Origin: a virus
Strand: one strand, 5' to 3'
DNA: 22,249 nucleotides
Virus record (IMG/VR): IMGVR_UViG_3300027146_000009
Location: 1-22,249 of that record
The notes under the pieces were generated by a model. That model ran no database searches, had not been told where the DNA came from, and was given only the letters and a program-made list of their open reading frames with translations. Positions within the stretch are counted from its first letter, which is position 1, and every line of letters begins with the position of its first letter. Positions 1,465-22,239 of the stretch are shown here, in pieces. The position numbers and the translations under genes were made by a program.

Positions 1465-1493
1465 TTGCAAGATATACACGGGCGGTGTATATT
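1465..1493 (+). promoter_or_regulatory. Sigma-70-like promoter with palindromic operator (class A)
   Basis: TTGCAA (1465-1470) and TATATT (1488-1493) are separated by 17 nt, a good -35/-10 pair. The spacer and -10 are covered by a perfect inverted repeat, ATATACAC (1472-1479) and GTGTATAT (1485-1492), with 5 nt between, as expected for a dimeric repressor or activator site. The predicted start near 1500 gives a ~21-nt leader with AGGGAG (1507-1512) 8 nt before the ATG at 1521. The same half-site and leader recur at the minus-strand gene at the right end of the window. Confidence 0.72.
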
Positions 1494-1772: not shown

Positions 1773-1800
1773 AGGCCCCCGCAAGGGGGCTTTTTCTTTT
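1773..1800 (+). terminator. Intrinsic terminator after the moron-like gene
   Basis: A G+C stem GCCCCC (1775-1780) / GGGGGC (1785-1790) is closed by a GCAA tetraloop, extendable by a G·T and an A-T pair, and followed by TTTTTCTTTT (1791-1800). The class B late promoter begins at the very next base, so this terminator insulates the portal operon from upstream transcription. Confidence 0.88.
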
Positions 1801-1813
1801 TGTGGGATACTGG
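1801..1813 (+). promoter_or_regulatory. Leaderless late promoter motif (class B) before portal
   Basis: TGTGGGATACTGG ends 4 nt before the ATG at 1818. Read as an extended -10 (TGG + GATACT, hexamer 1806-1811), the expected transcription start 7 nt after the hexamer is 1818, the A of ATG, giving a leaderless mRNA. There is no -35 box; that position is inside the terminator stem. Matching copies occur at 4634 and 6939 with the same spacing to ATG. Confidence 0.7.
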
Positions 1814-1817
1814 GAGC

Positions 1818-3554
1818 ATGGGTATCTTTGACCGCTTCCTTGGGCGTAAGGCCGCCGCTAATCCTACACAAGCATTGCCATTGCCGCTTAGCCAGTCTAG
1901 GGACATCTACCTAACCGGGTACGGCTCTGGTCAGCTGCAGACATTGCTACGCCGGGCGCTCCCTGGAAGTACTAAGGACTGGGCTAGAGTAGCCGGTGAC
2001 CTTGGCTTGAATGGCGTTGTTGCTAGTGCTATCGATTGGTACGTGCGGAACTACCCACAGGCAACACCAAGACTCTACCGACCGGTAGATTCTCAACAGG
2101 CAGACCCGGTAGAAGACCACCCAGTCATTCAGTTGATGGCGCAACCGGATCCGATGATTATGGGTAGCCTTTTCTGGGGCTGGGTCATTCAAGATTTCAA
2201 ATTGTTTGGCAACACTTACCTGAGAAAGATTCGCTCTTCCACCCGCGGCACGGTGACAGCTTTGCAGTTTCTACCGCAGGACATGGTTAGGCCTGTAGGC
2301 AACGGTGTCAACCCGCTAACCCACTACATCTACACCACGGATGGCCGCTCCTTTGACATCCCGGTTTCTGACATCATCCATATCCGGTACGGTAGAGACC
2401 CTAGCGACATCCGCATAGGTAGAGCGCCGCTTACCGCTGTACTGCGGGAGATTGCCACCGACAACACGGCAAGTACAACCGCATACGGCTTGCTTGCTAA
2501 CGGTGCTATGCCATCCTTGATTGTCGGGCCTGATGCCAAAGAGACAACCGTAGACATGAGCATGGACGATGCTCGGCAGGTGAAGCGCCAACTGCACGAA
2601 GACCTTACCGGGGACGGATCAGGCGGCATCGTGGTAATGACCGGTGCCTACAAGATGGATAGGGTTAGCCTTACCCCTTCCGAGCTTGCTCTGGATTCTG
2701 TGAGACGTGTACCGGAGGAGCGTATCTGTTCAGCCCTGGGCATCAACCCGATGGTCTTGGGCCTTGGAAGCGGCTTAGAGCGCTCTACCTACAGCAATTA
2801 CGAACGCGCCCAGCAAGCGGCTTGGGAAGATGGCATGGTGCCTTTGCTCCGTACCTTGGCGGATGCCATCACCGCTGACCTGCTGCCGGAATACCCGGAA
2901 ACTCAGCAGGGTGACTTTGTAATGTACGACCTTGAAACCGTACGTGCTTTGGCAGATGACCTACAGGCGGAAGCGTTGCGGGCGGAGAAACTTTACAAGG
3001 CGGGCATCATTGATCGGGCTGAAGCCAAGCGCATAGCCGGGCTGGAAGCCGTGCCGGAAGATGAAGGGCATCTACACCCAACGGCAATCCCAGTACAAAG
3101 CACCGGCGGCTTTGATGGTGCCGCAGTGCGATCGTATGAGATGAAGTTCCGACCGACCGAAGCCATGCGGACAGCGGCACAACGGGCGCTTGACTGGAAG
3201 GCTGAAGGCTTTGACGGCGGGACGCGGGTAGGCCTTGCGCGGGCTAATCAAATCGTAAACGGTGAGAAACTATCCGAAGACACGATACTCCGAATGTACT
3301 CTTTCTTCAGCCGTCATGAAGTAGACAAACAAGCCGAAGGCTTCAACGCTGGTGAAGAGGGCTTTCCAAGTCCGGGGCGTGTAGCCTGGGACTTGTGGGG
3401 CGGTGATGCCGGGTTCCGCTGGTCTACAGCCAAGCGTGACGCAATGCAGCCAGACGGCAAGAGCCTTGATGGTGACCACGTATGCACTCCGGGGGTAGTG
3501 TATAAGAGCCACCCTTTTTACGGGTATTCGCTGGAGGAAATCTCAAGCGAGTAG
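1818..3554 (+). CDS. Portal protein (HK97 family) with extra C-terminal domain
   Basis: The portal forms the dodecameric ring at the capsid vertex through which DNA passes and onto which terminase and connector dock. The first ~430 residues are typical of HK97-type portals: MGIFDRFLGRK start, DWYVRNYPQ, a clip/stem segment, FGNTYLRKIR, LQFLPQDMVRP, SDIIHIRYGRDP, and a C-terminal part with RVPEERICSALGINP and ERSTYSNYERAQQAAW. From about residue 442 a second unit follows (MKFRPTEAMRTAAQRALDW... GFPSPGRVAWDLWGGDAG), making 578 aa against ~400-450 for a normal portal. The start at 1818 is preferred over a TTG at 1800, because 1800-1817 is the promoter motif. The 3' end overlaps an open -1 frame that leads into the head morphogenesis gene. 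Confidence 0.93.
   Translation: MGIFDRFLGRKAAANPTQALPLPLSQSRDIYLTGYGSGQLQTLLRRALPGSTKDWARVAGDLGLNGVVASAIDWYVRNYPQATPRLYRPVDSQQADPVEDHPVIQLMAQPDPMIMGSLFWGWVIQDFKLFGNTYLRKIRSSTRGTVTALQFLPQDMVRPVGNGVNPLTHYIYTTDGRSFDIPVSDIIHIRYGRDPSDIRIGRAPLTAVLREIATDNTASTTAYGLLANGAMPSLIVGPDAKETTVDMSMDDARQVKRQLHEDLTGDGSGGIVVMTGAYKMDRVSLTPSELALDSVRRVPEERICSALGINPMVLGLGSGLERSTYSNYERAQQAAWEDGMVPLLRTLADAITADLLPEYPETQQGDFVMYDLETVRALADDLQAEALRAEKLYKAGIIDRAEAKRIAGLEAVPEDEGHLHPTAIPVQSTGGFDGAAVRSYEMKFRPTEAMRTAAQRALDWKAEGFDGGTRVGLARANQIVNGEKLSEDTILRMYSFFSRHEVDKQAEGFNAGEEGFPSPGRVAWDLWGGDAGFRWSTAKRDAMQPDGKSLDGDHVCTPGVVYKSHPFYGYSLEEISSE
3512..3518 (+). other. Candidate -1 slippery heptamer linking portal and MuF frames
   Basis: C CCT TTT fits the X XXY YYZ pattern in the portal frame (codons CCT TTT). 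It lies just downstream of 3503-3505, the last stop in the -1 frame. Slippage here would bypass the portal TAG (3552-3554) and continue into the head morphogenesis frame up to 4624, giving a ~935-aa fusion. I see no clear stimulatory stem; a GGAGG lies downstream at 3533-3537. This is speculative. Confidence 0.28.
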
Positions 3555-3637
3555 ACACCGGCACGGGCAGGATATATGCCGCTTCCCAGAAGTACCGGAA
3601 TGACCTGTTAGAGCGTGAAGGCGTAGCCATCAGCCGT

Positions 3638-4624
3638 ATGCAACGCGCATACAAGGCGGCAACCAAGGCAAGCATCGATGAACTGGAAGCGCTGGAGGGT
3701 AGGATAGCCGAGCGTGAAGCAAACGGTGAACCGCCATCCGAGACCATACTCTGGATGCGTCAGCGGATCATAGATAACATTGAGGAACTCGGAAAGAACC
3801 TTAAGAAGTTCAGCGTTGAAGGGGCAGTAATTACAGCAGATGGGCAACTGCAAGCCGCTATCCTTGCTAATGATGCAACGCCGCGCCTTGTGGAAGCGGC
3901 AGCGGGTAAAAAGCCCGCCGGTGTTACCCTTGGTACTTCATGGACAAGTCTTCCTGACGAAAGCCTCCAAGCCTTTGTCGGGTTCGCAGGCGATGGTTCG
4001 CCTCTGGCTGAGTTATTCAATAAGATTCCACAGGTAACTACCGATGCCATGCAGATGGCTTTGGTACAGGGCATCAGCCTCGGTGAAGGCCCGCGCACGG
4101 TAGCACGGCGGGTACGCAAGGCGGCAGATATTGGACGGCAAAGAGCCGAGACGATAGCACGTACCGAGATGATACGCGCAAGCCGGGAAGCTCAGCGGCA
4201 ACTCTATACCGAGAATGGCGCAGTAACCGGATACCGCCGACAGGCTACGCAGGATGCGCGGGTATGCCTTGCTTGCTTGGCTCTCTCTGGCACCTTGCAG
4301 GCCACCGATACCATCATGCCTTCACACCCGAACTGCCGGTGTGTGATGATTCCGGAGACGCTCTCCTGGGCTGAGATAACCGGTGATTCTTCCATACCGG
4401 ATACACGCCCAAAGGTGGCAACCGGTGAAGAGATTCTGAAGGGGCTAACACCGCTTGAAGCTCAGCAGATACTAGGCACTGCCCGCTACAACCTTTACAC
4501 CGAAGGGCTACCGCTTAGTGACATGGCAACCGTGGTGCAGAATGCCGACTGGGGGCCTACTACACGGGTATTGCCGCTTAGAGACCTAGAGGGATATCAA
4601 CCGGATCTCACAACGTACCTATGA
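3638..4624 (+). CDS. Head morphogenesis protein (phage Mu F / SPP1 gp7 type)
   Basis: This is a minor head protein carried in the prohead near the portal and thought to help assembly or be ejected with DNA. The C-terminal half shows the family pattern: IARTEMIRASREAQRQLY, then GYRRQAT-DARVCLACLALSG (Cys210, Cys213) and PSHPNCRC (Cys233, Cys235), a conserved Cys/His cluster. The N-terminal ~90 residues are helical and charged. ATG 3638 is the first usual start codon, but the frame is open back to 3506 and the residues ahead of it (KYRNDLLEREGVAISR) look like the helix that begins members of this family. The annotated start may therefore be truncated, with expression by frameshift from the portal or a rare start codon. 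The stop overlaps ATG 4621 (ATGA). Confidence 0.88.
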   Translation: MQRAYKAATKASIDELEALEGRIAEREANGEPPSETILWMRQRIIDNIEELGKNLKKFSVEGAVITADGQLQAAILANDATPRLVEAAAGKKPAGVTLGTSWTSLPDESLQAFVGFAGDGSPLAELFNKIPQVTTDAMQMALVQGISLGEGPRTVARRVRKAADIGRQRAETIARTEMIRASREAQRQLYTENGAVTGYRRQATQDARVCLACLALSGTLQATDTIMPSHPNCRCVMIPETLSWAEITGDSSIPDTRPKVATGEEILKGLTPLEAQQILGTARYNLYTEGLPLSDMATVVQNADWGPTTRVLPLRDLEGYQPDLTTYL

Positions 4625-4633
4625 AAAATGCAC

Positions 4634-4646
4634 TGTGGGATAGTGG
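4634..4646 (+). promoter_or_regulatory. Leaderless late promoter motif (class B) before prohead protease
   Basis: TGTGGGATAGTGG ends 4 nt before ATG 4651. The hexamer GATAGT (4639-4644) predicts transcription starting at 4651, the A of the ATG. No -35 box is visible. Unlike the other two copies there is no terminator before it; the motif sits inside a possible N-terminal extension of the protease that begins at 4621. Confidence 0.68.
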
Positions 4647-4650
4647 GTGT

Positions 4651-5607
4651 ATGGACTTGCTGACATCTACCGTAGACGGTATCAAGAGCGACCGGTTAGG
4701 CTACGTCAAGGGCTATCTGGTTCGCTTTGGCGATACTAAGACCGCCGACCTTGAAGGTGACTTTTTCACCGCTTCAACCGACTACGGCTTTCCGGTATCG
4801 AAGGGTCAGCGCGTACCGCTCAACGTGTACTATCATCACGGCATGGATGCCGCTGTAGGCAAGAAGAGCATCGGTACAGGCTTCATCAAGATGGACGATA
4901 CCGGGCTTTGGTACGAGGCGCAGTTAGATATAGCAGATGAATACGGAAGCATGATTGCCAAGTTATGCAAGCAAGGCAAGATGGGCTTTTCCTCTGGTGC
5001 AGCTGGTCATCTGGTAGAGCGCAAGAGCATGGGCGGTGCAGCTGAGATAACCCGCTGGCCTATTGCCGAAGCAAGCATTACACCGACACCAGCCGAGTAT
5101 CGTAACAGCGTAAAGACCCTCAAGGAGTACTACGGCATGGAGCCTATGATGGATATGGAAGAAGAAGAGATGGTCATGGCTCCAATGCCTGAACAGTCCC
5201 CGGAAGAGTACGCAATGTCGGTATACGATGATGCCGAGGGTGACCTTATCCATGAAGGATTAGAAGCCTACTACGATGCGCTTTGTGGAGCCATTGAAGC
5301 GGTATCAGATCAGAGCATGGCTGATGCCATCATTGATGAATTTGCTCGACGTGCTAAGGGGCTATATGCCATGCACGGCATGAAGAGCGTACAGCCCGCA
5401 TCCCTGCGGGGTGTTGAACGTCGACTGCGGGATGCAGTCGGTTTGTCACGGTCAAGCGCCAAGCGCTTGGCTCCCGTAGTCTGGGATTCTCTGCGGGATG
5501 CAGACCAGCCGGAAGAGCAGCCGTCCATCGTAGTAGAGGCGAAAGCCCATGACAATGACGAACGCCAGGAACTGCTGGCTCGTCTGGAGTTGTTGACACA
5601 ACTATGA
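4651..5607 (+). CDS. Prohead protease (S78 family) with C-terminal scaffold-like region
   Basis: The protease cleaves the capsid delta domain, scaffold and itself during HK97-type head maturation. Family signatures are VYYHHG (His62/His63 region), GKMGFSSGAAGH (Ser114/Ser115) and ITRWPIAEASITPTPAEYRN; His and Ser form the catalytic pair. After an acidic linker (EEEEMVMAPMPEQSPEEY) the last ~150 residues are helical and end with a SLRGVERRLRDAVGLSRSSAK segment, a type of tail seen on protease proteins that also act as scaffold. No separate scaffold gene is present before the capsid gene, which supports a fused role. Start 4651 follows from the leaderless promoter; ATG 4621 overlapping the upstream stop would add ten residues and could be used by translational coupling. 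It overlaps the capsid ATG by 4 nt. Confidence 0.92.
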   Translation: MDLLTSTVDGIKSDRLGYVKGYLVRFGDTKTADLEGDFFTASTDYGFPVSKGQRVPLNVYYHHGMDAAVGKKSIGTGFIKMDDTGLWYEAQLDIADEYGSMIAKLCKQGKMGFSSGAAGHLVERKSMGGAAEITRWPIAEASITPTPAEYRNSVKTLKEYYGMEPMMDMEEEEMVMAPMPEQSPEEYAMSVYDDAEGDLIHEGLEAYYDALCGAIEAVSDQSMADAIIDEFARRAKGLYAMHGMKSVQPASLRGVERRLRDAVGLSRSSAKRLAPVVWDSLRDADQPEEQPSIVVEAKAHDNDERQELLARLELLTQL

Positions 5608-6884
5608 ATCTAACACAATTGCAGAATCAGAAAGATTCTGTGCTTGCTACCGCGCGGGAGCTTGCTTCCGGTAACGGTGACCTTGCACAGGTCAAGTCCC
5701 TGATGGCTGAAGCCAAGGGCATCGAAGAGCGCATTGAGACAATCAAGGCACTCGGACAAGGCCACCCTGTGGCAACCGAAGTGCAAGCTGAGCAGCCATG
5801 GAAGTCCGGCGGCGTTGGACGCAATCCACTTTCCGGTACTCGTGATGAGGCTAACTACAAGGCTTACGCTTGGGGTCAGTGGGGACGCTCTATCATGGGC
5901 AACCGCAAGGCCGCTGAGTGGGTCAAGAACAACCTGAAATCACAGAGCGAAGGCACGAACAGTGCTGGTGGTTTTACTGTTCCAGATCCGTTGTCCTCTG
6001 AGCTTATCTACCTCCGTGAGCAGTTCGGAATTGCTCGGCAGAACTGCCGCATCTATCCGATGAGCAGCGATGTCCTCAACGTCCCTAACGCAACCGCGAG
6101 CACAACGGTCTACTACCCTGGTGAAAACACGGCTATCACGGCATCCGACCTGACCTTTGCACAGGTCAACTTGGTTGCGAAGAAGCCATCGATTCTTACT
6201 CAGGTTTCTAAAGAGCTGGCAGAAGATAGCATCATCGACTTTGGTGCAACCCTTGCCCGTGACATGGCGTACTCGCTTGCTAAGGAAGAAGACCGTGTTG
6301 TTTTCAACAACGCAGTAGACTCCACGAGCGGCCTCGATGGCATCCTGTATGCCGTCTACAACCTCAACGCAACCAAGGCTAACATCGCTAGTCTTCAGGT
6401 GTTCACAACCGGTCAGACCATCACGTATTCACCTACGTTGGCTAACCTTAAGGGCATGGTTGCCAAGCTCCCAACGTATGCACCTAATGCTAAGTGGTAT
6501 ATGCACAAGGAGATTTGGTACAACGCCATCGCACCTCTGCTTGATGCTTTGGGCGGTAACTCGATTATGGACATCCAAGGCGCCTACGGCCCTACGCCTA
6601 TGCTCTACGGATACCCTGTGGTGTTCGTCCAGAACATGGCGAAGACGCTTGCAGCAACCACGCCTTACATCCTGCTTGGTGACCTGAGCGTTGGTACTGC
6701 ATTTGGTGACCGCCGTACTGTTACGATTGAGGTTTCGGATCAGCGCTACTTTGTTGAGGATGCTTTGGCATTCAAGGCTACAGAGCGTTTTGCTTTCTCC
6801 GCTTTCGATGTTGGCAACGTCAATGCCACGGCATCCAGCCGTGTCCCTGGCTCGCTTATCGTTGGAGCATCCGCAGCTACATAA
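5604..6884 (+). CDS. Major capsid protein (HK97 fold)
   Basis: This 426-aa protein forms the icosahedral shell. Residues 1 to about 112 are a charged coiled-coil delta domain (MNLTQLQNQKDSVLATAREL, later EAKGIEERIETIKAL) that acts as internal scaffold. The mature part begins near SEGTNSAGGFTVPDPLSSEL, a strong match to the start of the HK97 N-arm, so protease cleavage near Lys112 is inferred by analogy. Further family features are KKPSILTQVSKELAEDS (E-loop to spine helix region), EEDRVVFNN and a C-terminal P-domain/A-domain stretch with LLGDLSVGTAFGDRR and ERFAFSAFDVG. ATG 5604 overlaps the protease stop (ATGA), implying translational coupling. The gene is closed by a strong terminator, as expected for a highly expressed late gene. 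Confidence 0.95.
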   Translation: MNLTQLQNQKDSVLATARELASGNGDLAQVKSLMAEAKGIEERIETIKALGQGHPVATEVQAEQPWKSGGVGRNPLSGTRDEANYKAYAWGQWGRSIMGNRKAAEWVKNNLKSQSEGTNSAGGFTVPDPLSSELIYLREQFGIARQNCRIYPMSSDVLNVPNATASTTVYYPGENTAITASDLTFAQVNLVAKKPSILTQVSKELAEDSIIDFGATLARDMAYSLAKEEDRVVFNNAVDSTSGLDGILYAVYNLNATKANIASLQVFTTGQTITYSPTLANLKGMVAKLPTYAPNAKWYMHKEIWYNAIAPLLDALGGNSIMDIQGAYGPTPMLYGYPVVFVQNMAKTLAATTPYILLGDLSVGTAFGDRRTVTIEVSDQRYFVEDALAFKATERFAFSAFDVGNVNATASSRVPGSLIVGASAAT

Positions 6885-6904
6885 GCCTAGCGGTTTCTAT
6901 CTCA

Positions 6905-6937
6905 AGCCCTCGGCAGACGTGCCGGGGGCTTTTCTTT
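6905..6937 (+). terminator. Intrinsic terminator after major capsid gene
   Basis: AGCCCTCGGCA (6905-6915) pairs with TGCCGGGGGCT (6920-6930) over 11 bp with one G·T wobble and a GACG loop. TTTTCTTT follows. The next class B promoter starts 2 nt after the T tract, so the head and connector transcription units are separated back to back. Confidence 0.9.
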
Positions 6938-6938
6938 A

Positions 6939-6951
6939 TGTGGGATAGTGG
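6939..6951 (+). promoter_or_regulatory. Leaderless late promoter motif (class B) before connector genes
   Basis: TGTGGGATAGTGG ends 4 nt before ATG 6956. Hexamer GATAGT (6944-6949) predicts a start at 6956. A -35 is absent, because that position falls in the preceding terminator stem. It is likely to drive the connector, spike and tail genes that follow. Confidence 0.7.
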
Positions 6952-6955
6952 AGCC

Positions 6956-7453
6956 ATGATGACACGAGCCGAAGCGATAGCGCAGGTATCACTTTTTGTG
7001 GATGCCCAGTCCTATCCGCAGATGTCCACAACCGACATAGGGAGCATCTTGGATTCCTACTCCCGGTTCACCACTTGGGCGGCTAGCACCACCTATGCTG
7101 TCGGTGACCGTGTAGTGCCTACAACGCCCAATGGGCGGGTCTACGAGTGCCGTGTGGCCGGAACATCAGGCACGACACAACCTGATTATCCGGTGTATGC
7201 TCCTTACCACGTCAGGGGCTACACCCTTGAAGATGGCACGGGAGACCCTACCTTGATGTGGGTAGACCAAGGCCCGATCAATGTAGAGCGCTACGATGTA
7301 AGGACAGCCACCCGGCAAGCGTGGATGATAAAGGCTAGCCGGTGTGCTAGTGACATCGATGCCAAGGAAGGCACAAGCGATGTGAAGCTCTCACAACTAA
7401 AAGCCCACTGCCTTTCGATGGCTGAACGATATCGCCCCCTGGTGTTCGCATGA
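6956..7453 (+). CDS. Head-tail connector/adaptor with carbohydrate-module-like insert
   Basis: The 165-aa protein occupies the slot right after the major capsid gene where HK97 gp6 / SPP1 gp15-type adaptor proteins lie; these ring proteins extend the portal. It has an N-terminal helical part (MMTRAEAIAQVSLFVDAQ, DIGSILDSYSR) and a C-terminal helical part (DVRTATRQAWMIKASRCASD, LKAHCLSMAERYRP), consistent with the adaptor helical bundle. Between them, about residues 38-100, is a beta-rich stretch WAASTTYAVGDRVVP...YECRVAGTSGTTQPDYP...DPTLMWVDQG resembling the small CBM5/12-like repeat found in many phage virion proteins. The start at 6956 is set by the leaderless promoter; an ATG at 6938 would translate the promoter. 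The stop overlaps the next start. Confidence 0.78.
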   Translation: MMTRAEAIAQVSLFVDAQSYPQMSTTDIGSILDSYSRFTTWAASTTYAVGDRVVPTTPNGRVYECRVAGTSGTTQPDYPVYAPYHVRGYTLEDGTGDPTLMWVDQGPINVERYDVRTATRQAWMIKASRCASDIDAKEGTSDVKLSQLKAHCLSMAERYRPLVFA

Positions 7454-7815
7454 GCCCGATACTCCGCGCAACCATCAGCGCTGGCATGGTACGTAACCTG
7501 TGCCAAGACCGTGTAGAAATACACCGCTTCACACTCACCGAAGACGGCCGTGGTGGTGCTACTGAGACATGGCGCAAGGTTGCCGAGTACAACGCCAGGC
7601 TAACCAACCAATCAGACACAGAGAGCATTGTAGGCGGTGGTATCCAGTCATCTGCACAGTGGACGCTGATAGTTGCTGTTAGTGCTGATGTCATGCCGCA
7701 AGACCGGGTTTACCGTATAGGCGATGATTCAAAGTATTACGATGTGATCGGGACAGACTTTGGACAAACCGAGCTGCTCGTTCAGCACTGTGGATTAGTG
7801 GAGCGTACAGCGTGA
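7450..7815 (+). CDS. Head-tail joining / head closure protein
   Basis: The product is a 121-aa beta-rich protein matching small head closure proteins of the SPP1 gp16 / HK97 gp7-like group, which plug the connector and receive the tail. Its pattern DRVEIHRFTLTEDGRGGATETW ahead of an ALTN-like NARLTNQSDTES, a central WTLIVAVSADVMPQDRVYRIGD and a final YYDVIGTDF...LLVQHCGLVER is typical: strand-rich, with a GRxGxTETW turn and a D-R-I/V-GD motif. ATG 7450 overlaps the upstream stop (ATGA). In most relatives the next gene is the HK97 gp10-like protein; here that gene is 4.6 kb away, after an accessory block. Confidence 0.78.
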   Translation: MSPILRATISAGMVRNLCQDRVEIHRFTLTEDGRGGATETWRKVAEYNARLTNQSDTESIVGGGIQSSAQWTLIVAVSADVMPQDRVYRIGDDSKYYDVIGTDFGQTELLVQHCGLVERTA

Positions 7816-8024: not shown

Positions 8025-8268
8025 CATCAGCATCAAGCGGTTAGTGGTCGTTGTGATCGTGGCTTTCGTAGCTGCTTTTACTTCCGTTTTCGGCGATGGC
8101 ATCAGGACAAGCGAAGCACACGACCTCAGCGAGCTTGGCGCAGTGCTGGCACTCTACGGCAGCAAGGCGGTAGCGGCTGGTGTCTCCGCTGCGGTGAGCA
8201 GTGTGCTGGCGTTCTTGACGATGCCTTTCAAGGGTACGAATGCGAACAGCCTGAAGGTGGGCAAATGA
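8017..8268 (+). CDS. Small two-span membrane protein (candidate holin)
   Basis: The 83-aa protein has a hydrophobic stretch at residues 8-26 (RLVVVVIVAFVAAFTSVFG) and a second at about 45-67 (LYGSKAVAAGVSAAVSSVLA, FLTMPF), joined by a polar loop, with a basic C-terminus. Two or three spans in fewer than 100 residues with a charged tail is the usual class II holin outline. The endolysin-like gene, however, is 13 kb downstream at 21204, so a lysis role is inferred, not shown; an alternative is a virion-associated membrane or superinfection-exclusion protein. It begins within the end of the preceding gene and its stop overlaps the next ATG (ATGA). Confidence 0.68.
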   Translation: MGSISIKRLVVVVIVAFVAAFTSVFGDGIRTSEAHDLSELGAVLALYGSKAVAAGVSAAVSSVLAFLTMPFKGTNANSLKVGK

Positions 8269-8492
8269 ACCTCCAGAACTTCAGGATTGAAAAGGAACCT
8301 GCACCGTCAACAGACTGGAAGGTTTACGGTGACATCGAGGATGACAATGGACAACCGTTAGGGACGTTCGGGCCTGATGGAACATCCGTCAATCTCTGGT
8401 GGGTTACACAGGACGAATTATTTCAATATGGAATTGTCCAACAATTTGCAGTGATTATGGCAAATCAAATTGCCACAGGGGACGCTGAGTAA
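8265..8492 (+). CDS. 75-aa spike-associated protein, copy 1
   Basis: I do not recognise a named family. The small soluble protein starts MNLQNFRIEKEPAPSTDW and contains LGTFGPDGTSVN and WWV, ending in a helix (QFAVIMANQIATG). A paralogue at 10402-10629 is identical at 56 of 75 positions by direct alignment. Each copy sits immediately upstream of, and overlaps by TAATG, a beta-helix spike gene, so the two form a cassette. A dedicated chaperone, a linker that docks the spike or a small virion subunit are all possible. Translation is coupled on both sides (ATGA upstream, TAATG downstream). Confidence 0.75.
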   Translation: MNLQNFRIEKEPAPSTDWKVYGDIEDDNGQPLGTFGPDGTSVNLWWVTQDELFQYGIVQQFAVIMANQIATGDAE

Positions 8493-10402
8493 TGGCAACC
8501 TATTATGTAAGGCAAGACGGTAACGACTCAAATACTGGTCTTGGGTCTACTACTCTTCTTGCTTGGCGTACTGTTCAAAAAGCGTTAGGTGCTACAGGTA
8601 TGGGATCTGGTGACACTGTATACATTGCACCGGGCACATACGTTGAACAAATCACAGTAGCGGGAACTTATAGTGCAACCACTTCTATTATTGGAGACAC
8701 TACAGCATCACAGTTTATTGGTATAAACGCAGGGCCAGTTCGACTTACTCCGTACCCATCTAGTGGTATTCTTGCAGCAACTTTTTCAGGGCCGGTTTTA
8801 TCAGCAACATCAAAAAACTTTTTATCTTTTGATTCTATAATCTTTCAATTTCAACACGGTACGACAACTAATGGCGTGCAGTTTCTGACTTGTCAAAATA
8901 TCACTTTGACCAGCTGTGTTTTTGAAACGTTTGCGTATGTCGGTCAAAATCTTGGATGTAGTTTACGATTCACTGCTCCGACATCACTACCGGCTAATAT
9001 GACCATACAGAGATGTATTTTTGGGCCACAGGCTAGTTTCCATATTTATGCCACAGGTAGCAGTGTTACAGATGCAACAATAATATCTGACTGTTTATTT
9101 TTAGGTTCACAACCTGATTCTATTACTCATGTGAATTTACAAATAAGTGTTTTCAACTCTACGTTTGTGCGTATTCACGGTGCGGCTATATTTCAATCTG
9201 GAGGGACTGCTACCAATTTTCAAACAATAAGAAACTGTGTTTTTTATCTATGTGCCACTGGGGTTTACTCTACAAGTACAAGTACGTCATCTGACAACTT
9301 CAACAGGTATATCGGATGCAGTGCTAATGCTACAAATACAACACTAGGTGGATCTACATCTGTTGTAGGTGTTGCAGGTATTGACTATGGTCAAGAGTAT
9401 CTTGTCGGATTGAATCCACAGGCTTATTTCGGAAACTTCAGCACATCGCCAAACTTAGGTACTGGAACCCCGACAGGCGCACCTTCTGTTGATATGTTTG
9501 AAAAGGCTTGGTCTACAGGTCAACGTGACATAGGAGCCGTAACCTACAGTGCGTTGTCAGGTGTTGGCAACTACCTCCCAACCGAGCGCAACGCTTCAGC
9601 CATCACGATAGCACCTGCAAGCACATCACAAAGCATTGAACTCTACCTAGGTGCTACAGGTCTGACGTTCAGCACGACTGGTCTAGCGGCCTACTACGTC
9701 CGCAATCAGAGCGCACCGGTGTCTATAACGCTGGTCACGCAGACACCTACAGGCGCGTGGTCATCTGGTGGCTTTGCTGAGATTGATTCTAGCCTTGTGC
9801 CGGGCGTGTATCGTTTGGATGTCCCTAACGCAGCTTTCTCGGCTGGTGCATCTGATGTCACGATCGTGGTGCGTGGTGCCTCTGGCACGAACGGGGCGGT
9901 GCTGACGGTCACGCTGAGTAGTGGTGGCTTGACGGCAGCGCAGACTGCCGCAGCGGTATGGGATGAGGCAAGGGCAAGCCATACGACAGCCGGTACATTC
10001 GGGCAGTACGTCAACGCGGAACTGGTTACCCCGGTAACATCTGCCGCTCTGGTTCGCATGGGGCCGTTTGAGGTTAGGGCTGACGGCTTGGGGGCATCTG
10101 ATCCGCTGGACATCCAGAAGGGCGCACAGCACGGTGTAGACATCCAGTGCGTAGACAACAACGGCTCAGGGATAGACATTACCAGTGCAACGGTTACGGC
10201 TAAGGTCTACAACTCTGGTGCTACGCTGGTAGACACGTACGCCTGTACGGCAACATATGCAGCTGATGGCAGGGCAACATTTACCATTGACACGACGGTA
10301 ACCAACGTCCCTGGAACCTACACAGCAACGATTACACGAACCACCGGGGCAAACGACACGCAAGTATTCGGCCCACTCCGAATCTATGTGAGGGACATAT
10401 AA
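8492..10402 (+). CDS. Beta-helix tail spike/fibre-like protein, copy 1
   Basis: The 636-aa protein begins with the entry motif of right-handed parallel beta-helix proteins: MATYYVRQDGNDSNTG, AWRTVQKALGATGMGSGDTV, YIAPGTYVEQITV. Residues ~70-345 are rich in short strands with N, T, S and C turns (NITLTSCVFE, IQRCIFGP, TIRNCVFYLC), the repeating coils of the helix, as in receptor-binding or glycan-cleaving spikes. Residues ~360-480 (NASAITIAPASTSQSIELYL, PGVYRLDVPNAAF, VVRGASGTNGAV) match the same region of copy 2. A linker with AAVWDEARASHTTAGTFG leads to a C-terminal Ig-like domain. No catalytic residues can be assigned. The central part is visibly more A+T-rich than flanking genes, suggesting exchange of the host-contacting segment. 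The position between connector genes is unusual. Confidence 0.8.
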   Translation: MATYYVRQDGNDSNTGLGSTTLLAWRTVQKALGATGMGSGDTVYIAPGTYVEQITVAGTYSATTSIIGDTTASQFIGINAGPVRLTPYPSSGILAATFSGPVLSATSKNFLSFDSIIFQFQHGTTTNGVQFLTCQNITLTSCVFETFAYVGQNLGCSLRFTAPTSLPANMTIQRCIFGPQASFHIYATGSSVTDATIISDCLFLGSQPDSITHVNLQISVFNSTFVRIHGAAIFQSGGTATNFQTIRNCVFYLCATGVYSTSTSTSSDNFNRYIGCSANATNTTLGGSTSVVGVAGIDYGQEYLVGLNPQAYFGNFSTSPNLGTGTPTGAPSVDMFEKAWSTGQRDIGAVTYSALSGVGNYLPTERNASAITIAPASTSQSIELYLGATGLTFSTTGLAAYYVRNQSAPVSITLVTQTPTGAWSSGGFAEIDSSLVPGVYRLDVPNAAFSAGASDVTIVVRGASGTNGAVLTVTLSSGGLTAAQTAAAVWDEARASHTTAGTFGQYVNAELVTPVTSAALVRMGPFEVRADGLGASDPLDIQKGAQHGVDIQCVDNNGSGIDITSATVTAKVYNSGATLVDTYACTATYAADGRATFTIDTTVTNVPGTYTATITRTTGANDTQVFGPLRIYVRDI

Positions 10403-10629
10403 TGAACTTTCAGAACTTTCGCATTGAAAAGGAACCAGCACCGTCGACTGACTGGCGTGTCTTTGGTGACATCTACGACTACTCCAGCAACCTGCTCGGC
10501 ACTTTTGGGCCTGATGGTACAAGCGTGAACTTTTGGTGGGTTCAGCAGGATGAAGCCTTTCAGACGGATATTGTCAATCAATTTGCGGTGATTATGGCTC
10601 AACAAATCGCAAGTGGAGTTTCTGAATAA
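10402..10629 (+). CDS. 75-aa spike-associated protein, copy 2
   Basis: This is the paralogue of the protein at 8265-8492 with the same length and the same conserved segments (QNFRIEKEPAPSTDW, LGTFGPDGTSVN, WWV, QFAVIMA). Differences cluster in the middle (residues 24-31) and near the end. It starts by TAATG overlap with the end of spike 1 and ends by the same overlap with spike 2, preserving the cassette layout. Conservation of the small protein together with its spike argues for a partnership; function is unknown. Confidence 0.75.
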   Translation: MNFQNFRIEKEPAPSTDWRVFGDIYDYSSNLLGTFGPDGTSVNFWWVQQDEAFQTDIVNQFAVIMAQQIASGVSE

Positions 10630-12446
10630 TGGCTACTTATTATGTGAAACTTGCGGCAGATGGCGGAAACGATTCACTTGCTGGAACATCACCGTCTACG
10701 GCTTGGGCTACTCTACAAAAAGCACTCGGAGCTTCAGGCATTGCATCCGGGGACACGCTGTACATCGCTCCGGGAACATACATCGAATCGGTAGTTATCG
10801 GTGGAACCTATAGCGCGTCAACGTTTATTATTGGTGATCCGACCGCTACGTTCTTCCCCGGCATGACTGCCGCTCCGGTTCGGCACAGTAACCTTAACGC
10901 CGCGCAAACTGCCGTTTCAATTAGTGCTATTTTGTTATCTGGCACAGGTAAATCAAACCTAAAGTTTTCGAACATCCACTGGTACGGGGGACAATTATCA
11001 GCCAATGGATACCACCTTGTAAGCCTATTGACTGGCGCAAGTAATAGTTTTGACAAATGCGTTTTTGAATCTACTAGCAACTTTAACCGAACATTGGTTT
11101 GTACCCCACCAACATCGGCTGCACTTAATCTCTCAGTCACTAACTGTATATTTATGGGCGGAGGTGGCAACCCTTCCGTAGACTTGACTGGCTCAAATGT
11201 TGCAGACACGACGATTATTAGAAACTGTCTAATTTATAGGATGTCTTGGTTTTGCTCCATGACAAACCTAGGAGCAAAAGTCACAAACTGTACATCATCA
11301 ACCCCTGAAGGAAACTTTCTCGTTCTAAACAGCGGAAGTCTTTCGTTTCCAACTACAGTAAATAACTGCTTGATTATGAATAGTTTACGTTTCTGTTTTA
11401 ATGTAGGCACGAATGGAATGCTTCTGGAAAACTACAATCGTGTTTTAGGTGGAGCCGTAAACTCAAACGTGACGCAGGGTGCAAATAGTATCTACGCTGG
11501 CGGAAGTGGTATCGAGTCTGGGTATGCATTACTGCACGGACTCAACTATACGCAGGTGTTTGGTTCTTTCCTGACAAGCCCTAACGCATCATTCGGAATC
11601 GCGACAAATGCATCTGCTACCGACCTCTATGGTGTGACGTGGACTGGTGCTAATCCTGACAGTGGTTCGGCAACATATCGAGTTATAACCACTGTTCCAT
11701 CGCAGATTGCATACAACGGTGGTGTAGAGCGCAACGCATCCACGATCAGAATTGCACCCGGCAGTACATCACAAAGCATCGAGCTCTACTTAGGTGCTAC
11801 AGGCCTTACAGCCTCTACAAGCGGTCTATCAGCCCGGTACAACCGTACCCGTACAGCAAGCGTAAACATACCGCTGGTAGCACGTACGATAGGACAGGCG
11901 TATACAGCTGGCGGCTTTGCTGAGGTTGACGCAACCAATATGCCGGGTGTCTACAGGCTTGACCTCCCTGATGCCGCCCTAGCGGTAGGAGCAGATGACG
12001 TTACCGTAGTAGTCAGAGGAGCCAGCGGTACTAACGGTGCAGTCATGACCGTTACACTTTCAACTGGTGATAATACCGGGGCGGGTGATGTCAGCGGAAA
12101 CATCTTGGAAATCACCGAAGACCCGCAAGAGGTTACAAACATTTCTGCTTGGACTGGAGACTGGCACACGTACGTTATGCGCTTGGTGGATGACAATGGG
12201 ACTCCATACGACACAACAAACGATACTTTGTCAGTGACTTATACCAATGTTGCTACAGGGTCGGCGTACAGTTTTAATAGCGGCAGTGCAACCATAACCA
12301 AGCAGCTGAATGGGCAGGGGATAATCAGTTTATTGAATCCAGCTGCATATCCAACAGCCGCTGTTATACGCATAACCATTGGCGCTGCTATCGGATCCAC
12401 GGTACGCCGCTTTGGCCCGTTAGAAGTTGAGGTGTTGGCACCGTGA
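10629..12446 (+). CDS. Beta-helix tail spike/fibre-like protein, copy 2
   Basis: The 605-aa paralogue of the spike at 8492 starts MATYYVKLAADGGNDSLAG, then TAWATLQKALGASGIASGDT and YIAPGTYIESVV, and later carries NCIFMGGG, IIRNCLIYR and TTVNNCLIMN, coil-like repeats of a right-handed beta-helix (about residues 70-340). Residues ~365-475 (NASTIRIAPGSTSQSIELYL, MPGVYRLDLPDAAL, VVRGASGTNGAVM) align with copy 1. The C-terminal ~120 residues (WTGDWHTYVMRLVDDNG, RRFGPLEVEVLAP) look Ig-like and differ from copy 1 except for the closing FGPL motif. Host receptor binding is inferred from fold type. Having two variants could widen host range, or one could form a hetero-complex with the other. The stop overlaps GTG 12443. 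Confidence 0.8.
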   Translation: MATYYVKLAADGGNDSLAGTSPSTAWATLQKALGASGIASGDTLYIAPGTYIESVVIGGTYSASTFIIGDPTATFFPGMTAAPVRHSNLNAAQTAVSISAILLSGTGKSNLKFSNIHWYGGQLSANGYHLVSLLTGASNSFDKCVFESTSNFNRTLVCTPPTSAALNLSVTNCIFMGGGGNPSVDLTGSNVADTTIIRNCLIYRMSWFCSMTNLGAKVTNCTSSTPEGNFLVLNSGSLSFPTTVNNCLIMNSLRFCFNVGTNGMLLENYNRVLGGAVNSNVTQGANSIYAGGSGIESGYALLHGLNYTQVFGSFLTSPNASFGIATNASATDLYGVTWTGANPDSGSATYRVITTVPSQIAYNGGVERNASTIRIAPGSTSQSIELYLGATGLTASTSGLSARYNRTRTASVNIPLVARTIGQAYTAGGFAEVDATNMPGVYRLDLPDAALAVGADDVTVVVRGASGTNGAVMTVTLSTGDNTGAGDVSGNILEITEDPQEVTNISAWTGDWHTYVMRLVDDNGTPYDTTNDTLSVTYTNVATGSAYSFNSGSATITKQLNGQGIISLLNPAAYPTAAVIRITIGAAIGSTVRRFGPLEVEVLAP

Positions 12447-12859
12447 TAAAGATGAGCTTCAGTCTAAAGAAAGTACGGCTTGATTCTTATCAGAAGAATC
12501 TACGCCAACTTTCACAGGTTGTCGGCAAGGCAGCGGCTGACATCGAGGGTGAAGCCAAGTCTAGTATTTTGAAAAGCTCCGGCAAGTACAAGCAATACGG
12601 CGATCACTGGTCAAGCCCCCCTGGCTCACCGCCTAACAACGATACCGGCAATCTTGCTAACAGCATCGGGCATCGAATGACGGGCCCAACATCTGCGGAA
12701 GTATTTGTAAGCGCAAAGTACGGCGTACCGCTGGAACTTGGTTGGATAGCAAAGTCTGGCAACCACGTACCGGCAAGACCGTTCCTGCGTCCAGCGGTTG
12801 AGTATGTAGCCCCGTCTTTTCAAGCGGCGTGTAAGAGCATCCTGAAGGGTGGCAAGTAA
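12443..12859 (+). CDS. HK97 gp10-like tail completion/neck protein
   Basis: The 138-aa protein of the HK97-gp10 group lies at the head-tail joint and links connector to tail terminator. Evidence is the helical N-terminal region with KAAADIEGEAKSSI, the characteristic PPGSPPNNDTGNLANSI segment, a beta strand with VSAKYGVPLELG and the conserved ARPFLRPAVE near the end. The start is taken at GTG 12443, which overlaps the spike stop (GTGA); ATG 12452 is an alternative three codons in. Relatives normally sit directly after the head-tail joining gene, so this gene marks where the conserved connector order resumes after the 4.6-kb accessory block. Confidence 0.85.
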   Translation: MIKMSFSLKKVRLDSYQKNLRQLSQVVGKAAADIEGEAKSSILKSSGKYKQYGDHWSSPPGSPPNNDTGNLANSIGHRMTGPTSAEVFVSAKYGVPLELGWIAKSGNHVPARPFLRPAVEYVAPSFQAACKSILKGGK

Positions 12860-13338
12860 TGGCATTTGAACCAGCCGTGATTGAGCAGTGGATCTACGAA
12901 ACTCTAACAGGCGATACTACCTTGATGGGTTTGCTTGCTCCTGATAACAAGCCTAACGGTTTCCAGATGGGCGTGTACAACACGATCGCCCCGCAGATAG
13001 ACCCGATATCACGCAAGCAACCGGTTACTCCCTACATTGTCTTTGATCGTGCAGGTAACGCAGGGCAAGACCAAGACGTGCTGTGCGGTAGCCGGGTCTT
13101 CACATACCCGACCTACAGAATCACCGTGTGGGATACTGCAAGTGGTGCGGTAAGCATGAATCAGTCCGCTGCTATCATGTCCCGCGTAGACACATTGCTT
13201 GACAATATCCACGTTTCGAGTACCACTCCACGGTTCTACAGCCGGAGGGAATCAACAGCTCAGACGTTTGGTTTGGAAAGTGGTGGTCGGACTGATTTTG
13301 GAGTGACGGCGGTGTACCGTATGGTCACACAACAATAG
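12859..13338 (+). CDS. Tail terminator / tail completion protein (DUF3168-like)
   Basis: The 159-aa protein has the position, directly before the tail tube gene, and features of tail terminator proteins, which cap the tube and bind the head connector. It shows an N-terminal helix with a short-range motif WIYETLTGDTTLMGLL, PYIVFDRAGNAG, a strand YRITVWDTASG and a C-terminal strand TDFGVTAVYRMV. Assignment rests mainly on size and synteny, with support from the PYIVFD and Y-R-I-T-V-W pattern. It starts by TAATG overlap. Its coding sequence contains a near-copy of the late promoter motif at 13127-13139, encoding VWDT, which may drive the following tail tube gene. Confidence 0.75.
   Translation: MAFEPAVIEQWIYETLTGDTTLMGLLAPDNKPNGFQMGVYNTIAPQIDPISRKQPVTPYIVFDRAGNAGQDQDVLCGSRVFTYPTYRITVWDTASGAVSMNQSAAIMSRVDTLLDNIHVSSTTPRFYSRRESTAQTFGLESGGRTDFGVTAVYRMVTQQ
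13127..13139 (+). promoter_or_regulatory. Possible internal late promoter (class B near-copy) upstream of tail tube gene
   Basis: TGTGGGATACTGC matches 12 of 13 positions of the class B motif. The hexamer GATACT (13132-13137) predicts a start near 13144 and a ~204-nt leader to the tail tube ATG 13348, a gene with its own good Shine-Dalgarno. Coding constraint (VWDT) could also explain the match. Confidence 0.35.
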
Positions 13339-13341
13339 GAG
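13337..13341 (+). promoter_or_regulatory. Strong Shine-Dalgarno of the tail tube gene
   Basis: AGGAG lies 6 nt before ATG 13348, overlapping the stop codon of the upstream gene (13336-13338). Most neighbouring genes have no such site and start by overlap, so this marks independent, high-level initiation for the tail tube protein. Confidence 0.75.
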
Positions 13342-13347
13342 TAACTT

Positions 13348-13782
13348 ATGCCATTTACACGTACATCTGCTTTGATCGGTGAAAACTGCGTGGTTACCGT
13401 TGCCTTTGGTGGCTATCAAGACGGTACACCTTCAGCCTTTACGGCTGACACCTACACCTGTATTGCTCGTTCGGTTCGGTTCAGCACTTCTGTCAATACC
13501 GTTGATGTTTCCGCGCTCTGCGATACTCAGAACAAGGCGCAAGCAACGAAGGCTAACGGATCCGTTGAGGTTGAGTTTCTGGTAGATTCCGTGGTCGGGC
13601 CTATCTTCTACAATAAAGATGGTTACTACTGCCAGATTGTCCTTACACCAGGGACGCTTGCCGCTCGGACATTCGTTGGTGTCGTTACCTCTACAGGTAT
13701 CAGCGTTGCAAACGAAGAAGCCGTAACCGAGTCCGCAACATTGACACTTGGTGCTAACGGAGTAACAACCGCTTGGGCGTAG
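13348..13782 (+). CDS. Major tail tube protein
   Basis: The 144-aa beta-rich protein lies just before the G/GT frameshift pair, the standard place for the tail tube subunit, which stacks in rings around the tape measure. The sequence has alternating strand segments (CVVTVAFGGYQDG, TCIARSVRFSTSVNTVDVSA, VEVEFLVDSVVG, YYCQIVLTPG, FVGVVTSTGISVANEEAV) and the expected size. The SVNTVDVSALCDTQNKAQAT region corresponds to the loop typical of tube proteins (S-x-N-x-x-D-V-T/S). A clear AGGAG precedes the start, fitting high expression. There is no Ig-like C-terminal add-on. Confidence 0.85.
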   Translation: MPFTRTSALIGENCVVTVAFGGYQDGTPSAFTADTYTCIARSVRFSTSVNTVDVSALCDTQNKAQATKANGSVEVEFLVDSVVGPIFYNKDGYYCQIVLTPGTLAARTFVGVVTSTGISVANEEAVTESATLTLGANGVTTAWA

Positions 13783-22172: not shown

Positions 22173-22189
22173 ATCTCTATATCTCCCTG

Positions 22190-22239
22190 CGGTGTATAAC
22201 CACACCCGGAATATACACCGGATGCGGATATATTGTCAA
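22190..22239 (-). promoter_or_regulatory. Sigma-70-like promoter with palindromic operator (class A), minus strand
   Basis: On the minus strand TTGACA (22239-22234) and TATATT (22215-22210) are 18 nt apart. A perfect 9-bp inverted repeat, CGGTGTATA (22190-22198) and TATACACCG (22212-22220) on the + strand, overlaps the -10 and the early transcript with 13 nt between halves. The half-site is the same as at 1472-1492, but the spacing differs (13 against 5 nt). Shine-Dalgarno AGGGAG is at 22188-22183. Confidence 0.75.

Follow-up and report, generated by a model that had tools for sequence, protein, structure and literature searches.

The minimal sigma factor gp55 of phage T4 reads a late promoter consisting of a -10 element only; this element, TATAAATA, acts with gp33 and the sliding clamp and is not built onto a start codon. 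In phage phiEco32, the sigma factor gp36 recognises a single element, tAATGTAtA, which lies before middle and late genes without a -35, and transcription starts 6-8 bp downstream; the absent -35 has been attributed to absent homology to region 4, and in the phiEco32-like phage 7-11 the late promoter is bipartite (PMC8948821). Promoters of the TANNNT class in Deinococcus-Thermus and Actinobacteria carry their -10 a few base pairs before the ATG, with a dispensable -35 and a leaderless mRNA as product (PMC3160421, PMC12340547). The non-virion RNA polymerases of phiKZ and AR9, which are multisubunit enzymes of the phage, read short phage-specific late promoters, that of AR9 being AACA-6N-TA/G, and AR9 untranslated regions (UTRs) measure 26-491 nucleotides (nt) (PMC5312081). 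Here we describe an 11-nt element, TGTGGGATANT, in an uncultured phage (IMG/VR record IMGVR_UViG_3300027146_000009, positions 1 to 22,249; this stretch of 22,249 nt is referred to as the window), which is highly likely to be a late promoter that is read by a phage-encoded sigma factor and drives leaderless virion operons.

The original prediction held that a 13-nt motif stands 4 nt before the ATG of three late-module genes. Exact copies of TGTGGGATA(C/G)TGG were indeed found at 1801-1813 (C), 4634-4646 (G) and 6939-6951 (G), each separated by 4 nt from the ATG of the portal (1818), protease (4651) and first connector-region gene (6956). Allowing up to two mismatches, the window contains five sites against 0.99 expected, and none of 100 shuffles reached five; a near-match with two mismatches was noted at 7789. 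A fourth copy of the core, which is conserved, lies at 13127-13137 within gene 12859-13338 rather than ahead of a start codon. As had been claimed, the first and third copies directly follow terminator-like hairpins, which end at 1792 and 6931. The hairpin at the first copy was retained in most portal relatives, with other sequence in its place in the rest. A promoter-pair scan detected no sigma-70-type -35/-10 pair at the three motif sites. The mechanical list of open reading frames extends all three genes N-terminally through the motif, an error that had been foreseen for gene callers; the portal start at TTG 1800 is thereby false, and the ATG at 4621 upstream of the protease is probably unused.

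The prediction had called for a search of relatives, and 80 loci were taken from IMG/VR by a capsid-protein search in which the motif was not a criterion. The core preceded 34 of 34 portal, 66 of 66 protease and 78 of 78 connector readable starts in these loci. It preceded no start in 13 other gene families, and several of those families have a Shine-Dalgarno (SD) sequence. The head morphogenesis gene had the motif in 0 of 110 homologues and the major capsid gene in 0 of 117. Starting a portal search from a divergent member led to an equal outcome, down to an identity of about 68%. Pooling all loci, some of which had been fetched by the motif itself, yielded 299 distinct start contexts; since the searches overlap and the sequences are related, context counts are not independent events, and 34, 66 and 78 are the unselected counts. 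The pooled contexts read TGTGGGATA, then C or G, then T, with zero exceptions. The predicted 13-nt motif thus survives as an 11-nt invariant core, its trailing GG being variable, and the fixed distance holds for the window copies, whereas relatives place the ATG either 6 nt (279 contexts) or 5 nt (20 contexts) from the core and at no other distance. Information amounts to 2 bits at every core position except N, while both flanks vary and the spacers are diverse. By gene, the core was 100% conserved in the 120 distinct portal contexts; all 105 protease contexts have the 6-nt spacing, and the 74 connector contexts have 6 nt (62) or 5 nt (12). Conservation upstream of the core is lower and gene-specific because terminators or the preceding gene lie there, and the 299 aligned contexts share no upstream -35 element, as anticipated. 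The variable core base was C only before the portal gene; at protease and connector starts it was either C or G, and a lineage of 62% GC content has A. Scanning the whole collection for the motif plus ATG matched 107 IMG/VR stretches, some 89 of them belonging to relatives of the phage, as compared to 11 stretches for a reversed-motif control; portal relatives of the group in IMG/VR number 600 or more.

The early region is missing from the window, which is a fragment; in that region long relatives encode a protein of about 280 residues resembling sigma-70. It matched the PHROG 351 sigma factor (8e-30) and Pfam Sigma70_r2 (8e-9), with Sigma70_r3 just below the curated cut-off and the NCBIfam TIGR02937 superfamily above it, and a phmmer search of PDB sequences aligned residues 58-281 with a cyanobacterial-type SigA (5e-25). 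The AlphaFold2 model was of moderate confidence (predicted local distance difference test 71, predicted template-modelling score 0.43), and its Foldseek matches were sigma subunits; whole-chain template-modelling scores were low and the model was used as fold-family support only. Judged by sequence, the early-region protein is a member of the sigma-70 family with regions 2-4 homologous to RpoD/SigA. Its clades A and B are 43% identical and were collected from 24 and 40 loci, which partly overlap. Every sigma-encoding contig that reaches the portal gene carries the motif there, and nowhere else in the early region. The sigma gene was found in 13 of the 32 long records searched, 7-10.5 kb upstream of the portal gene; records lacking it do not clearly contradict the pairing, because all of them end within about 8.2 kb upstream of the portal gene. 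The third lineage, of 62% GC and represented by G038, has most structural proteins 48-69% identical. Its core takes the form TGTGGGATAA(T/C), with TGTGGGATAAC before the protease, TGTGGGATAAT before the connector, after a terminator, and TGTGGGATAAT again at the internal site. Its sigma factor (clade C) is 22-30% identical to the others, so that three sigma clades, 22-43% identical, accompany the same motif.

Some records carry more than one sigma gene. Contig IMGVR_UViG_3300042429_000522 (62,434 bases; L283, L287) encodes one sigma of clade A and one of clade B, being either two phage genomes joined in assembly or a real concatenate. Non-identical second copies were also seen at opposite contig ends (L182/L183 in G003, L317/L318 in G012), reflecting either a true duplicate or a permuted genome assembled from mixed strains. 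Cultured phages gave only distant matches to portal, capsid and sigma. A sigma match in a Klebsiella phage proved to be rpoD beside rpsU and dnaG, which is probably host DNA at the end of the record.

In E. coli sigma-70, Q437 and T440 face and set the -12 base pair, and R584, E585 and R588 read the -35 (PMC2613000). Residue numbering was transferred to the phage proteins via a 617-residue RpoD with an offset of 4. All 44 distinct clade A and B sigmas carry T440R, A438K, V454E and T459K, and in all 44 the -35 residues are replaced (R584 by P/V, E585 by S/T/V/A, R588 by E/K). The clade C sigma possesses R440, R441, E454 and H455 and lacks R584, E585 and R588. R440 and the lost -35 contacts fit the promoter, since its -12 base is G and its -35 is absent. 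R440 may therefore read the G at -12, and the phage sigma, as its residues predict, is one without -35 recognition.

These observations suggest the following scheme. Early genes would be expressed from host-type promoters (TTGACA-18-TATATT) with SD sequences, until the early-region sigma-70-family subunit redirects host core RNA polymerase to four late sites. It would use an extended -10 only, comprising an upstream TG and the hexamer GATANT in which G replaces T at -12. The sites adjoining start codons would give leaderless portal (plus head), protease plus capsid, and connector operons. Transcription is expected from the start codon because the element lies 5-6 nt before the ATG, a spacing which favours the earlier placement of the -10, with +1 probably falling on the A of ATG. 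At the fourth copy, inside a tail gene, the next gene would be driven with an ordinary leader, making this an extra promoter within the tail module. Terminators before two of the sites would shield the operons from upstream transcription, and the timing of the promoter is presumably late. The idea of a phage-specific late promoter served by an altered polymerase is thus strengthened by conservation at the DNA level, the terminators, the spacing and the linked phage sigma, and the phage's own sigma factor very probably docks on the 11-nt signal. Some points weigh against this. For the window's own genome, a sigma gene is suggested by synteny with near relatives; the match of sigma to motif would follow from linkage and residue logic; and the TG is invariant even though the phage sigmas have Y or V in place of E458, the residue touching the extended -10 G in E. 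coli. We give roughly even chances to the broader proposal that a sigma family diverged to about 22% identity has kept one promoter code (R440 for G at -12, -35 reading discarded) and fused promoter with start codon, so that leaderless virion operons would bypass SD control in the late programme across more than one host composition.

Alternatively, the element could be a host-type leaderless promoter at which host sigma-A reads a -10 adjoining the ATG, as with TANNNT in Actinobacteria and Deinococcus-Thermus, and its geometry does equal that of the known leaderless -10 motifs (PMC3160421, PMC12340547). We consider this improbable: the first hexamer base is G and never T in all contexts, which does not agree with the TANNNT class, 11 nt are invariant across a group that includes the 62% GC lineage, other phage genes have TTGACA/TATATT promoters with SD sequences, and a phage sigma with matching residue changes is linked to the motif. 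It is similarly improbable that another phage transcription factor, an activator or accessory protein, binds here on the host holoenzyme, the sigma being otherwise employed. Helix-turn-helix (HTH) proteins are present in the early region and could supply such a factor, but the motif fills -17 to -7 before the ATG, where a separate downstream -10 would not fit, and the unusual base at -12 goes together with altered region 2.4, at the very residue that contacts this position.

The internal copy at 13127 allowed constraint on the DNA to be separated from constraint on a peptide. Comparison of 76 distinct homologues gave 154 codons with a degenerate third base, of which only five never vary at that base. 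GTG, GAT and A[CGA]T of the motif make up three of the five, whereas all other listed valine and aspartate codons of gene 12859-13338 vary. By our own arithmetic, which ignores relatedness, random placement would give this pattern about 2 times in 100,000. Because even the silent positions do not vary, it is the DNA that is constrained, and since a start codon is absent at the usual distance, the internal copy is not a translation signal. A signal for translation acting at the RNA level within a longer 5' UTR would account for the fixed distance to the ATG at three genes, but is very improbable given this frozen copy, the terminators directly upstream of two copies and a motif which reads unlike an SD sequence. 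The conserved N-terminal WD[TS]G peptide that had been raised as an alternative, for which in-frame TTG or ATG codons upstream of the window copies could speak, has a negligible chance and is ruled out by the 5-nt spacing that shifts the reading frame in 20 contexts, by stop codons in frame between motif and ATG in 20 contexts, and by the frozen silent sites.

Coordinates of the features are collected in the table.

Table. Promoters, terminators and genes in the window
Feature	Position	Strand	Evidence or remark
Host-type promoter TTGCAA-17-TATATT	1465..1493	+	Before gene 1521-1757 (SD present); contrasting promoter class
Intrinsic terminator before late promoter 1	1773..1792	+	8-pair stem and T tail
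Putative late promoter 1, core TGTGGGATACT	1801..1811	+	-10 hexamer GATACT 1806-1811, TG 1803-1804; predicted +1 1818
Portal protein, predicted leaderless	1818..3554	+	Pfam Phage_portal 2e-51, PHROG portal
Head morphogenesis (Mu F-like) protein, downstream in operon 1	3638..4624	+	Pfam Phage_Mu_F 6e-15
Putative late promoter 2, core TGTGGGATAGT	4634..4644	+	Predicted +1 4651
Prohead protease, predicted leaderless	4651..5607	+	Pfam Peptidase_S78 7e-7
Major capsid protein, start overlaps protease stop (coupled)	5604..6884	+	Pfam Phage_capsid 6e-38
Intrinsic terminator before late promoter 3	6904..6931	+	12-pair stem and T tail
Putative late promoter 3, core TGTGGGATAGT	6939..6949	+	Predicted +1 6956
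First connector-region gene, predicted leaderless	6956..7453	+	Precedes Phage_HCP gene; PHROG head decoration 3e-8
Head completion gene (Phage_HCP), after first connector-region gene	7450-7815		
Putative late promoter 4, core TGTGGGATACT, inside gene 12859-13338	13127..13137	+	Predicted +1 near 13144
Gene downstream of promoter 4, tail-tube candidate by position only	13348..13782	+	Sequence reading
Host-type early promoter TTGACA-18-TATATT for leftward right-end gene	22210..22239	-	11 of 12 consensus bases

The gene downstream of promoter 4 has its own SD sequence, AGGAG, at 13337-13341, and its relatives show no motif at the start. The first connector-region protein has a weak match to CBM_5_12 (carbohydrate-binding) at residues 40-76, just below the Pfam cut-off. 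We noticed a tandem duplicated pair at 8265-10402 and 10402-12446, each consisting of a 75-residue protein followed by a 600-residue fibre-like protein; the two 75-residue proteins (starts 8265 and 10402) are closely similar, and relatives G001 and G003 are seemingly single-copy for the pair. Both host-type promoters overlap inverted repeats, ATATACAC-5-GTGTATAT at 1472-1492 and a 21-nt pair at 22178-22232, which are likely to be operators of a small HTH_3 repressor, seen in relative G001 (3216-3440).

The phage group is presumably of freshwater origin, as we read it from the metagenome numbers. When bacterial genomes were scanned twice, with alignments of capsid and portal, no relative came up, and 84,980 bacterial and archaeal species, each represented by one genome, held no detectable relative of the group, so that either the host is uncultured or the phage is strictly lytic. 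One sigma slightly favours cyanobacterial SigA models, a preference too weak for naming the host. What began as a sequence oddity becomes a transcription switch that can be tested, in a phage group both abundant and uncultured, and it supplies a clean candidate for late phage genes with a leaderless design; if the reading is true, the signals to start copying and to start translating are joined in one element. Three diverged sigmas with one promoter would also form a natural experiment on how region 2.4 reads -12. Annotators are warned that, in gene calls, these virion proteins may have an N-terminal extension running through the promoter.

When set against described systems, the proposed switch resembles that of phiEco32 in pairing a phage-encoded sigma with one conserved element before structural genes and no -35. 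However, the element is unrelated in sequence to tAATGTAtA, which points to similar working in a different promoter family; unlike in phiEco32, region 4 is present, with its DNA-contact residues lost, and the element abuts the ATG (predicted leaderless) in a genome of about 35 kb. T4 gp55 offers a likeness in principle, a late promoter with a -10 only, although the element sequence and the fusion to the start codon differ here. The TANNNT class depends on host sigma-A and a loose consensus, unlike the 11-nt invariant element with G at -12 and the phage sigma proposed for it. With phiKZ and AR9 the phage shares a short phage-specific late promoter, the polymerase there being a phage multisubunit enzyme. 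Our search of the open-access literature found no such combination of phage sigma factor, leaderless transcripts and late genes, and for this reason, while the principle is known from phiEco32 gp36 and T4 gp55, the specificity, the leaderless fusion and the phage group appear to be new.

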